From the NCBI GenBank assembly GCA_001648575.1, contig LQXN01000058.1:1-64000 (forward strand): a stretch of 64,000 nucleotides of DNA, read 5' to 3'. The position numbers and the translations under genes were made by a program. Source of the stretch: Sutcliffiella horikoshii DSM 8719 (lineage in GTDB: Bacteria > Bacillota > Bacilli > Bacillales > Bacillaceae_I). Positions 31,115 to 58,595 of this stretch are shown here, piece after piece. The first letter of the stretch is position 1, and the number at the start of each line of letters is the position of its first letter. The notes under the pieces were generated by a model that was not told where the DNA came from, did no database searches, and worked only from the letters and a program-made list of their open reading frames with translations.

Positions 31115-33436
31115 TTAGTGCCCCATCAAAACCTTTTCCTCCGAAACATCCCCAAGCAGAAAATCCGTCCTATCATTCCCATATAAGCTCAAATGATGTA
31201 ACGGCCTTGTCATGGCAACGTACAGCAATTTCACATCGATCTCGGTTTTCGTGAACACCTCATCAAGCGTGCACAATAGCACCGCATCAAACTCGAGCCC
31301 CTTTGCCAATTGGGCATGTACGATGACGACATCCTCCTGATTGATTTCTTCATTCTCCTGAAGCAATTGCACGCGCAAATCGGTATGCTTGCTTAGCATC
31401 CCCTCTAGTTTCTTGCATTCCTTTTCAGTTTTGCCAATCACTGCAATTGTTTTTCGGCCGTCAACAGCATACAGCTTCTTGATTTCTGTCTCGATCATCC
31501 CAGCCATTTCACTTGCCCCGCCACCTGAATTAGACCATTTATGAAAGAGTGGCTTTGCACCATGCCTCACTACCGGTTCCACTTTTGGAAGTTCAAATGG
31601 CAACAGCTTAAGGATGTCATTTGCCGTCTCCATGATTTCAACGGTTGTACGGTAGCTTTTTTGCAAGGTAGTATAGGCAGCCCGCGGGAAGATGGACTCC
31701 TTTACTTTGTTCCAATCCTGGATGCCGCGATAGGAATGGATGCCTTGGGCCAAATCGCCAACGATGGTGAACATGTCCGTCTCCAATGCACTCTTTAATG
31801 CTGCAAGTTGAAAATAACTGTAATCCTGTGCCTCATCAATGACAATATTTCGTGCACGCAGGTCCTTACTGATGCCGTACAAATGGTGCTGTAAATAGAG
31901 TAACGCCGCCAAGTCTTCCAATTCATACTTTTTTTGTTTATGTAACTTCACCTGATAGTCTACAAAATACTTGATTTGAAAGTCATCCAGATAGTCATTG
32001 GCATATTTGGCAAATGTCGCCCTGTCTGTCACCAGCTCTTTGAAATAATGAAAGAGTGTGTGTTTGGGAAGCTTTCGGATGAACGCGTTGACGGCTGTCC
32101 TGGACTCCCGCTTTATCTCTTCGGTCATTTGATCCTTTTTATCCATCGCTTTTGTCACATAGCTTTTGCGTTTGGCAGGATCTAGTTTCATGTTGAACAA
32201 TGCTTTATCGAGTTTGTGGTCATAAAATTTTTCCACTTTGTGCAAAAGCACCTTTTTCTCGGTCCGTACATAATTCTGCAGAACACTTTTCACCTTTTCC
32301 ACCCGTCGATAATACGGGAGGTAGGTATACTCATTACGTATTAAGTTTTCCATTTTTTCTGCGGTGTAAAGTTTGAATTTCGAAGTCAGATAAAAATCTT
32401 CTGTCGGGATGAGTGTTTCAAGAATGTCAGATAGATAGCGGTCGATGATGTCTTTGAATTCCAAAGAACCCTTGAAGCTTGCGAGCCATTGGACCATCTC
32501 AGGGTCCTCGTATTCATGATTGATGAACCCCATCAGTTTCTCGGACGGTGGCCGCAGCTTTATTTTCTTTCCGATACAGCTCAAGACAAAATCTATGAAG
32601 GTCGTCTGCAGGATCCTGTCCACCCCGAGCTCTGGCAATACTTCCGAAATATAGTCGATGAACAGGTTATTTGGTGCTAGTATCATAAGTTGTTCTGGTC
32701 GGAATTGGTCCTGATAGGTATAGATGAAATAAGAAATTCTGTGAAGGGCGATGGTCGTTTTCCCGCTTCCCGCCGCCCCTTGGACGATGATCGGTTTATT
32801 GAGATCTGCCCGGATGATGCGGTTCTGTTCCTCCTGGATGGTGGATACGATATCGGTCAGACGATTGCTCGAGCTGCCGGAAAGGGACTCTTGCAAAAGC
32901 TCATCGGTTGTCGTCAGGTCGACATCCCTTATGTCCTGAAGCTCGCCGTCCTCCATGATGTATTGACGTTTCAGGGAAAGGTAGCCGTCATAGGTTTCCC
33001 CTTCCGCTTCGTACTCCACGTCTCCTAATCTTCCATCATAGTAAAGGTTGGCAATTGGAGAGCGCCAGTCCACGATAATCGGATCTTGTGTTTCCCTGTC
33101 GAACAAAGATGCTTTTCCAAAATAAAGGATTTCCTCTTCGTCTTTGCCGGCGCGCTTGTAATCCACTCTGGCAAAATAGGGCTTATGGTAGATTTTCTTG
33201 AGGCTGCGGATCTCTTCGGTCGTCCGCTGAAGCAGGTTTGCGTTGGTGAGCATGCTCATGTAGCTTAAACTACTGTCCTTAAAGTCCATGCCGTCCAGTG
33301 CATCTTTAAAACTTGCTTTGAATGATTCCTCATCCATTTCTGTTGCCTGGATCACAATATCCATATACTTTTTGGTAAATGTCAGCCGTTCCACTTCCTG
33401 ATCAAAATCAGGATGCCTTTTCTTCTTTTCTGCCAA
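31115..33436 (-). CDS. helD: RNA polymerase recycling motor HelD (UvrD-like ATPase)
   Basis: A 773-aa superfamily 1 helicase-like protein (B. subtilis HelD is 774 aa). It has a charged coiled-coil N-terminal arm (residues 1-90), Walker A GAAGSGKTTIALHRIS (220-235), DEAQDYSYFQ, the VGDLAQGIHSYRG motif and a C-terminal ARGLEF-like QLAKGLEFDAVLL and YVAMTRPLHHL. HelD removes stalled RNA polymerase from DNA and RNA. The start is a TTG 9 nt after AGGAG. A leader ORF and terminator precede it. Confidence 0.9.
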   Translation of the reverse strand: MAEKKKRHPDFDQEVERLTFTKKYMDIVIQATEMDEESFKASFKDALDGMDFKDSSLSYMSMLTNANLLQRTTEEIRSLKKIYHKPYFARVDYKRAGKDEEEILYFGKASLFDRETQDPIIVDWRSPIANLYYDGRLGDVEYEAEGETYDGYLSLKRQYIMEDGELQDIRDVDLTTTDELLQESLSGSSSNRLTDIVSTIQEEQNRIIRADLNKPIIVQGAAGSGKTTIALHRISYFIYTYQDQFRPEQLMILAPNNLFIDYISEVLPELGVDRILQTTFIDFVLSCIGKKIKLRPPSEKLMGFINHEYEDPEMVQWLASFKGSLEFKDIIDRYLSDILETLIPTEDFYLTSKFKLYTAEKMENLIRNEYTYLPYYRRVEKVKSVLQNYVRTEKKVLLHKVEKFYDHKLDKALFNMKLDPAKRKSYVTKAMDKKDQMTEEIKRESRTAVNAFIRKLPKHTLFHYFKELVTDRATFAKYANDYLDDFQIKYFVDYQVKLHKQKKYELEDLAALLYLQHHLYGISKDLRARNIVIDEAQDYSYFQLAALKSALETDMFTIVGDLAQGIHSYRGIQDWNKVKESIFPRAAYTTLQKSYRTTVEIMETANDILKLLPFELPKVEPVVRHGAKPLFHKWSNSGGGASEMAGMIETEIKKLYAVDGRKTIAVIGKTEKECKKLEGMLSKHTDLRVQLLQENEEINQEDVVIVHAQLAKGLEFDAVLLCTLDEVFTKTEIDVKLLYVAMTRPLHHLSLYGNDRTDFLLGDVSEEKVLMGH

Positions 33437-33504
33437 ACTCTTCACACTCCTGAGGTTTTGTAGGGCTCTTTTCTCAAAGAAAAAACAGCCTTTAATAAAG
33501 ACGC

Positions 33505-33541
33505 AAAAAACCATGAACTAGAGTCCTTCTCCATTCATGGT
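33505..33541 (-). terminator. leader terminator in front of helD
   Basis: Minus-strand ACCATGAA (33534-33541) pairs with TTCATGGT (33510-33517), followed by TTTTTT. It lies between the helD promoter (33612-33640) and the helD start (33436), where no other gene would need a terminator. Confidence 0.75.
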
Positions 33542-33547
33542 AAACAT
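33518..33547 (-). CDS. putative 9-codon leader peptide of helD
   Basis: ATG-TTT-ACC-ATG-AAT-GGA-GAA-GGA-CTC-TAG encodes MFTMNGEGL. AAAAGG lies 9 nt upstream. Codons 3-5 form the 5' arm of the leader terminator, so a ribosome paused on the ORF would open the hairpin. The design matches antibiotic-responsive attenuators; expression is inferred, not shown. Confidence 0.5.
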   Translation of the reverse strand: MFTMNGEGL

Positions 33548-33611
33548 CCTTGGTAACCTTTTCAAAGTACGCAACGGTTTTCTGTTTCAGTTCTATTTTG
33601 CCGGAAGGATA

Positions 33612-33640
33612 ATTATAACCGCTTCCAAAACAATTTGCAA
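33612..33640 (-). promoter_or_regulatory. sigma-A promoter of helD
   Basis: TTGCAA (33635-33640), 17 nt, TATAAT (33612-33617) on the minus strand. The transcript would have a leader of about 170 nt. Confidence 0.8.
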
Positions 33641-33666
33641 TTTTCTATCAGATTTATTTCTTTCCC

Positions 33667-33695
33667 TTGTCAGCCATCCACCACATATGTAAACT
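33667..33695 (+). promoter_or_regulatory. promoter of bioB
   Basis: TTGTCA (33667-33672), 17 nt, TAAACT (33690-33695). The -10 lies inside the left arm of the BirA-type palindrome. Confidence 0.6.
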
Positions 33696-33719
33696 AATAA
33701 TGTATTTAAGTTTACATAT
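33685..33719 (+). promoter_or_regulatory. BirA-type biotin operator
   Basis: A perfect 11-bp inverted repeat ATATGTAAACT ... AGTTTACATAT with a 13-bp spacer. It has the length and TGTAAAC/GTTTACA form of biotin repressor (BirA) sites and overlaps the bioB promoter, so bioB should be shut off when biotin is plentiful. Confidence 0.75.
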
Positions 33720-33739
33720 ATTATTTGGGAGTGATTATT

Positions 33740-58471: not shown

Positions 58472-58595
58472 TTCTTATCCAGAGAGGTTGAGGGAATGGC
58501 CCGAAGACACCTCAGCAACCAGCAGCGCCCGCTTTATCGGACGCTGAAAAGGTGCTAATTCCAGCAAGCTGTGATGCTTGCAGAGATGAGAAGAA
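58472..58595 (+). promoter_or_regulatory. S-box (SAM-I) riboswitch aptamer
   Basis: The signature elements are present in order: TTATCCAGAGAGGTTGAGGG, ATGGCCCGAAGACACCTCAG, CAACC, AAGGTGCTAATTCCAGC and a closing GATGAGAAG that pairs with the start. It binds S-adenosylmethionine and turns off the downstream genes. Confidence 0.95.

Follow-up and report, generated by a model that had tools for sequence, protein, structure and literature searches.

The gene helD2 occupies positions 31115-33436 on the minus strand of the 64,000-nt stretch of Sutcliffiella horikoshii DSM 8719 DNA analysed here (the window), and encodes a class I HelD protein of 773 amino acids. Its product passes the curated cut-off of the NF041464 (HelD_BACSU) profile, at 446.9 bits against 419, matches chain H of PDB entry 6wvk (6wvk_H, E 9e-94), and is 92-94% identical to the HelD of named relatives. 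Two proteins of this genome exceed the cut-off: this one and the canonical B. subtilis-type HelD, encoded elsewhere (G000:C3:168400-170688), which scores 1070.5 bits and is a much closer orthologue. The window gene is a HelD paralogue, here named HelD2, and not the B. subtilis-type helD. The canonical-type gene (G000:C3; L040, L127) carries an in-frame TAG at codon 348, its normal stop being at 777; none of four same-genus canonical copies checked has an in-frame stop before 777, and the gene may be a pseudogene or the TAG an assembly or sequencing error. HelD proteins clear stalled polymerase, and that of B. subtilis protects against rifampicin (PMC12802891); why some bacteria retain additional helD genes is, according to PMC8655204, 'not clear'.

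The leader, all on the minus strand, runs for about 170 nt from promoter to start codon. A sigma-70-type promoter, TTGCAA-17-TATAAT, lies at 33612-33640, where an earlier reading of the sequence alone had placed it; its hexamers are the same in 14 of 16 same-genus leaders, differing only in L021 and L022, and the position of the -10 box would put the transcription start near 33605. An early-leader block, GTTGCGTACTTTGAAAA (33559-33575), is kept in all 16; L031 and L033 have 3 nt inserted, and L033 also has one base changed. Then come a nine-codon ORF, ATGTTTACCATGAATGGAGAAGGACTCTAG (MFTMNGEGL; 33518-33547), and a terminator-type hairpin, ACCATGAAT-GGAG-loop-CTCT-A-GTTCATGGT (33510-33541), with its arms ACCATGAAT at 33541-33533 and GTTCATGGT at 33518-33510. 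The sequence-only reading had located hairpin and T-run correctly but gave the former 8 pairs and a 16-nt loop: it has nine outer and four inner pairs, the stem continuing inwards with T.G and then GGAG/CTCT, and a 5-nt loop. The first T of the T6 tract (33505-33510, followed by GCGTC) pairs with the A of ACC. Between T-run and Shine-Dalgarno sequence, an insertion found here and in L021 contains an extra hairpin, GGCT..AGCC (33464-33490); the insertion in L022 is longer and of different sequence, and the remaining 13 leaders of the genus lack one. The Shine-Dalgarno sequence, GGAGTG from 33450, and the TTG start codon at 33436 together span 33434-33450; TTG is the start in 16/16 same-genus leaders and the Shine-Dalgarno sequence is, by eye, slightly variable. 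As an alternative start we considered the 3'-arm ATG, which in the window shares the reading frame of helD, and rejected it: in several same-genus leaders an early in-frame stop follows it (by eye), and TTG was therefore retained.

Three further observations concern the surroundings. Directly downstream of the -10 box, the helD2 leaders of two other families (f19, f41) and of L018 share a transcript start of AAATACGTCTTT or a close variant, which is present also in the hairpin-less leaders L174 and L180. A palindrome, ATATGTAAAC-N15-GTTTACATAT, at 33685-33719, lies between helD2 and a divergent gene at 33725; we take the gene to be biotin-synthase-like, and the palindrome presumably resembles a BirA operator. 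A SAM riboswitch of known kind is found at 58472-58592 on the plus strand (Rfam RF00162, 81.3 bits).

Strength of the leader hairpin

A stable hairpin leads directly into a T-run, as in an intrinsic terminator (-14.0 kcal/mol, T6); when the 132-nt leader was shuffled 300 times with its dinucleotides preserved, an equally strong hairpin beside a T-run appeared in 6 cases. Within the window, surveyed without its first 1.7 kb, 18 of the 295 T-sites that do not lie just after a long ORF are as strong, the leader hairpin included. Hairpins of -12 kcal/mol or below accompany 15 of the 45 T-sites at most 120 nt downstream of an ORF of at least 150 codons, and 34 of those 295. As terminators go, the leader hairpin is of usual strength and by that measure alone unremarkable; a simple hairpin scan (loops of 3-8 nt) did not report it. 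Terminator energies across 23 helD2 leaders range from -8.3 to -15.1 kcal/mol. No Rfam family matches within 33380-33700 at an E-value of 1 or below. Conservation is the stronger test.

Conservation across genomes

A search for CCATGRA-N6..24-TTCATGGTTTTTT found a single occurrence of the pattern in each of 17 of the 18 family genomes (16/16 in the genus, 1/2 outside it), always with helD2 downstream, and the reversed pattern, used as control, in none. By family, the hairpin lies upstream of helD2 in 17 genomes of f1; in 11/14 of f19, 8 found by covariance model and 3 by eye, the latter confirmed at 25-29 bits; in 6/7 of f41, 5 by model and 1 by eye, the latter then scoring 27 bits; in 2/4 of f44; and in one found in f20. 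Over 397 genomes of the order the model matched 104 at E up to 0.01. Its 26 best matches (at least 39 bits) are all upstream of helD2, though most come from the model's own training genomes, which match by construction because they were used to build it; L157 and L161 are new. When these 26 and four of the next five were inspected, 27 of the 30 loci proved to be upstream of helD2 and three away from it; of seven further model loci, two are not at helD2 (the G398 match and a second G127 match).

The hairpin is absent from 4 of 40 helD2 genes of at least 63% identity in the families searched (G398, G280, G259, G057). A sample of 150 genomes contained 49 with a match: the hairpin is present in 11/12 at 63% identity or more and in 0/37 at 58% or less. 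Scanning the 38 leaders of these 37 distant genomes together with the close hairpin-less leaders yielded no sense-strand match to the model upstream of helD2; L124 has a match of 19.2 bits on the other strand. Since it is missing from four of the 40 close genes and from the 38 distant leaders, helD2 can do without the hairpin. The upstream neighbours of helD2 differ, and so it is with helD2 that the hairpin travels. One helD2 gene beside a hairpin is split: in G269, query residues 8-93 are found next to it (C1:707279) and residues 97-767 about 2.5 kb away (C1:702531-704522), as if interrupted by an insertion.

Eight helD2 leaders from other families (L091, L094, L095, L098, L100, L101, L103, L105) have no terminator; in these, TTTCTCC ... 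GGAGAAA surround a CCATTGCGGCTGAAA-like segment, and their pairing could sequester the Shine-Dalgarno sequence. This pairing appears in the lowest-energy fold of six of the eight, not in those of L091 and L098, and looser versions occur in L102 and L126.

The motif is not exclusive to helD2, because similar hairpins precede other genes. Pattern matches at 33 loci include 15 with no helD nearby; ORFs were listed for nine of these, three of which directly follow an ORF, and three f44 loci (L077, L080, L082) represent one common site between two genes. None of 15 further, lower-scoring model sites inspected is at helD: among them are the leaders of two ABC-F genes in the same genus, three f20 sites that all precede one membrane-protein-like 213-aa ORF, and three f22 sites that likewise precede a common ORF.

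Covariation and sequence constraint

The alignment holds 33 hairpins, 32 of them distinct; repeats of the same genomes (L026, L027, L028, whose hairpin is that of L024, and L030, as L022) were left out, as were the hairpin-less leaders L011/L174, L017/L182, L180 and L088. Standard pairs fill 99.0% of its 288 pair cells, against 42.4% for the best slid register. Double-change cells number 7, a figure reached in none of 500 shuffles, relatedness being uncorrected. Changes on both sides affect three of the nine pairs: AU to GC at the base in five rows, AU to GC in one, and UA to AU in one; the five basal swaps, in related genomes, may stem from one or two events. Among the 32 distinct rows the basal pair is AU in 24, GU in 3 and GC in 5. 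By eye, the inner stem varies in a compensatory way (GGAG/CTCT, GGAA/TTCC, GGAG/CTCC); that of L035 is partly broken (by eye; -10.3 kcal/mol), and pair 11-26 of L025 is mismatched. One-sided changes are mostly of G.U type (10 GU at pair 9-28, 12 UG at pair 11-26), which favours RNA over a DNA palindrome. Covariation keeps the structure at the RNA level, as expected of an intrinsic terminator.

Every one of the 33 rows has a T-run: at least 6 T in 24, and 5 T, too few for TTNTTT, in 9, with the run broken by G or C in most. Downstream of it, GCGTC or CTGTC recurs in many helD2 leader rows, although beyond the expected termination point. The arm sequence is kept across five families; the loop is not. 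Constancy of the 3' arm was considered as a binding signal and dropped, because most of its pairs permit only wobble changes on the 5' side.

Leader ORFs and the ABC-F leader

The sequence-only reading had made the nine-codon ORF the sensor of a ribosome-stalling, drug-inducible attenuator. MFTMNGEGL can indeed be read at 33547-33518; its ATG exists only in L020, L021, L022 and L030, four of the 16 genus leaders, and in L021 a 1-nt deletion in the loop shifts the frame. Orthologues, then, keep the terminator without the ORF, the very outcome that the sequence-only reading had named as refuting its proposal, and with its start so seldom present and its frame variable we judge the ORF non-functional.

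Another ATG, in the 5' arm, is kept throughout the genus. Its ORF has 6 codons in 8/16 leaders; the remaining eight give 15-31 codons or run on without a stop into helD. Beyond the genus (a survey without L018), L019 and L012 have GTG in its place and soon a stop codon, the frame ends early in L083 and L085 too, and it stays open into helD2 in L010, L014 and L013; the remaining leaders offer it no clear Shine-Dalgarno sequence, except L087, as weak as in the genus (-5.6 kcal/mol). These ORFs, from 2 codons to open into helD and with weak or no Shine-Dalgarno sequence, were likewise rejected. As for an alternative fold, none of 23 leaders folded with a cut before the 3' arm (L021, L022, L086, L087 and L050 not among them) has an antiterminator: pairing the 5' arm upstream gains only 0.5-3.3 kcal/mol.

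What a leader-peptide attenuator is expected to look like in this genus is seen elsewhere. Two same-genus genomes (L188, G015:C7; L189, G002:C1) have a similar hairpin, ACCATGG...CTCATGGTTTTTT, before an ABC-F gene; that of G015:C7 scores 38 bits with the helD2 covariance model. The gene's best NCBIfam match is 'ribosomal protection-like ABC-F', at 244 bits on a partial protein and below the 380-bit cut-off. Its leader ORF, MLLSVK..., is 43 codons long in both genomes, whose versions differ by 5 synonymous and 8 non-synonymous changes, and is preceded by Shine-Dalgarno sequences of -16.5 and -15.6 kcal/mol. We regard this leader as a candidate leader-peptide attenuator, with a hairpin base resembling that of helD2; helD2 itself is without such features.

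Antisense promoters at helD genes

Induction of B. subtilis helD by rifampicin comes about because PhelD normally suffers interference from a strong antisense promoter; 39 bp separate the two start sites, and HelD does not regulate itself (PMC12802891). We searched for antisense promoters by a simple hexamer score with 60 shuffles for each leader, a crude test that could miss unusual promoters. Canonical-type helD leaders of the genus (13 loci from 16 genomes) have antisense TTGAC(T/G)-17/18-TATGAT/TATAAT/TAAAAT in 12 of 13 cases, at p of about 0.02 or less, the exception being L047; by hand estimate the start sites are some 41 bp apart. At HelD2 the same crude score found none in 27 leaders at p<0.05, the lowest value being about 0.08, and one in a wider set of 44, five of which are shared with the 27.

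Interpretation

Conservation and covariation bear out one part of the sequence-only reading, the attenuator layout of promoter, leader terminator and helD, while ribosome stalling falls away. Attenuation of helD2 by its leader terminator is, as a prediction, well supported. We lean, by a little over an even chance, to the view that a weak, Nus-type intrinsic terminator attenuates the gene and that readthrough is set by the polymerase's state of termination. Polymerase would start near 33605 and transcribe about 95 nt of leader; a fraction would stop at the hairpin and T6, the rest reading on into helD2. Readthrough would be set by the elongating polymerase itself with its Nus factors, most likely so since there is no conserved leader ORF and no antiterminator was found in the leaders folded. 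Poor termination, through scarcity of Nus factors or an altered or stressed polymerase, would then raise HelD2 output. The component claims differ in strength. That the hairpin terminates transcription is likely. Nus factors may matter too, a little short of an even chance: the A-U/G-U stem base and the distal interruption of the U-tract are features published for NusA/NusG-dependent terminators of B. subtilis (PMC8060035, PMC9226507). A response of the terminator to the state of the polymerase is a tentative suggestion.

The arm sequence is conserved beyond the needs of pairing, which a plain terminator does not explain and which leaves room for a trans-acting factor. Such a factor, a protein (possibly tied to polymerase or HelD) or a small RNA, would recognise the CATGAAT/ATTCATGG stem and switch termination. 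Constancy of the arms across five families while the loop varies, double changes in only three of nine pairs, and the recurrence in many rows of GCGTC or CTGTC beyond the T-run speak for it; yet no candidate factor was identified, B. subtilis HelD does not control its own expression (PMC12802891), and the similar hairpins before ABC-F in two genomes and the 213-aa ORF at three f20 sites suggest that there is no dedicated regulon, a shared one being possible. We consider this control unlikely. Less likely still is a set-point without regulation, the partial terminator doing no more than reduce helD2 expression or define the end of a short leader RNA: the moderate hairpin, its loss in 4 of 40 close relatives and the lack of an antiterminator in 23 leaders would suit it, and the surplus conservation of the arms, above what a passive terminator needs, would not. 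A DNA operator, the inverted repeat binding a dimeric regulator, could draw on the palindromic half-sites and their conserved sequence, but the gap between half-sites varies from 7 to 16 nt, the changes, mostly one-sided and G.U-tolerant, suit RNA, and a T-run adjoins in 33/33 rows; on the variable gap and the wobble-type changes we reject it as most improbable.

Two further readings would bring in drugs. A ribosome-stalling attenuator has in its favour AAGG-type letters before the 5'-arm ATG in all 16 same-genus leaders (-3.8 to -7.8 kcal/mol, where shuffled sequences have a median of -1.4 and a 5% point of -6.3) and the likeness to the ABC-F hairpin, whose leader resembles a leader-peptide attenuator. 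The start of the nine-codon ORF in 4/16, the varying length and frame of the arm ORF within the genus, its GTG, early stops or want of a clear Shine-Dalgarno sequence outside it (L087 excepted), the absence of an antiterminator from the 23 folds, and the lack of any counterpart at helD2 to the strong Shine-Dalgarno sequence and constant 43-codon ORF of ABC-F largely refute the idea, which we hold to be very unlikely. Rifampicin had also been brought up in the sequence-only reading, by way of actinobacterial HelD relatives: the published link concerns the orthologue of B. subtilis helD (PMC12802891), which in this genome is a different gene. That helD2 carries the same convergent-promoter alarm might be expected of a HelD gene, given the strong antisense promoter at 12 of 13 canonical-type leaders of the genus; with 0/27 HelD2 leaders, and 1/44 of the wider set, positive by a score that could miss unusual promoters, we give this scarcely any weight.

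The leaning set out above, to a Nus-type terminator read through according to polymerase state, can be extended. The hairpin might be a dedicated cis-regulatory RNA that reads the termination competence of polymerase, or of a bound factor, and raises a second rescue motor when termination fails: a speculative reading that we rate as improbable, if attractive. If true, each helD paralogue in a cell would have a sensor of its own, convergent promoters for rifampicin on one and an attenuator for termination state on the other. That paralogues within a genus differ in their leader devices, a conserved terminator being among these, provides a direct handle on the second HelD: whatever opens the helD2 attenuator would tell when this protein is needed.

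Comparison with known systems

Among the matches listed in the open-access literature, none describes a terminator in a helD leader. The rifamycin-associated element (RAE) of actinobacterial helD/helR genes (PMC8655204, PMC12802891) is likewise a palindromic element upstream of a HelD gene; it is a 19-bp palindrome of Actinobacteria, whereas the helD2 leaders, in Bacillales, have an RNA hairpin that covaries and adjoins a T-run. The vmlR leader of B. subtilis (PMC9226507) shares with helD2 a promoter, an intrinsic terminator in the leader, of the weak Nus type, and a stress-response gene downstream, but it has a uORF, an antiterminator and an anti-antiterminator, none of which is conserved or was found at helD2. 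The NusA/NusG-dependent terminators (PMC8060035) likewise have an A-U/G-U stem base and, as in most helD2 rows, an interrupted U-tract, and 24 of 33 helD2 rows have the six or more T that TTNTTT would need, 9 having five; helD2 differs in the conservation of its stem sequence across families, and its Nus dependence is a prediction. The alarm on B. subtilis helD (PMC12802891) resembles the proposed attenuator in acting on a class I HelD by way of the leader, and we predict it for the canonical-type helD of the genus; HelD2, by contrast, is a paralogue for which none of 27 leaders scored showed an antisense promoter at p<0.05 and which has a terminator in the sense direction instead.
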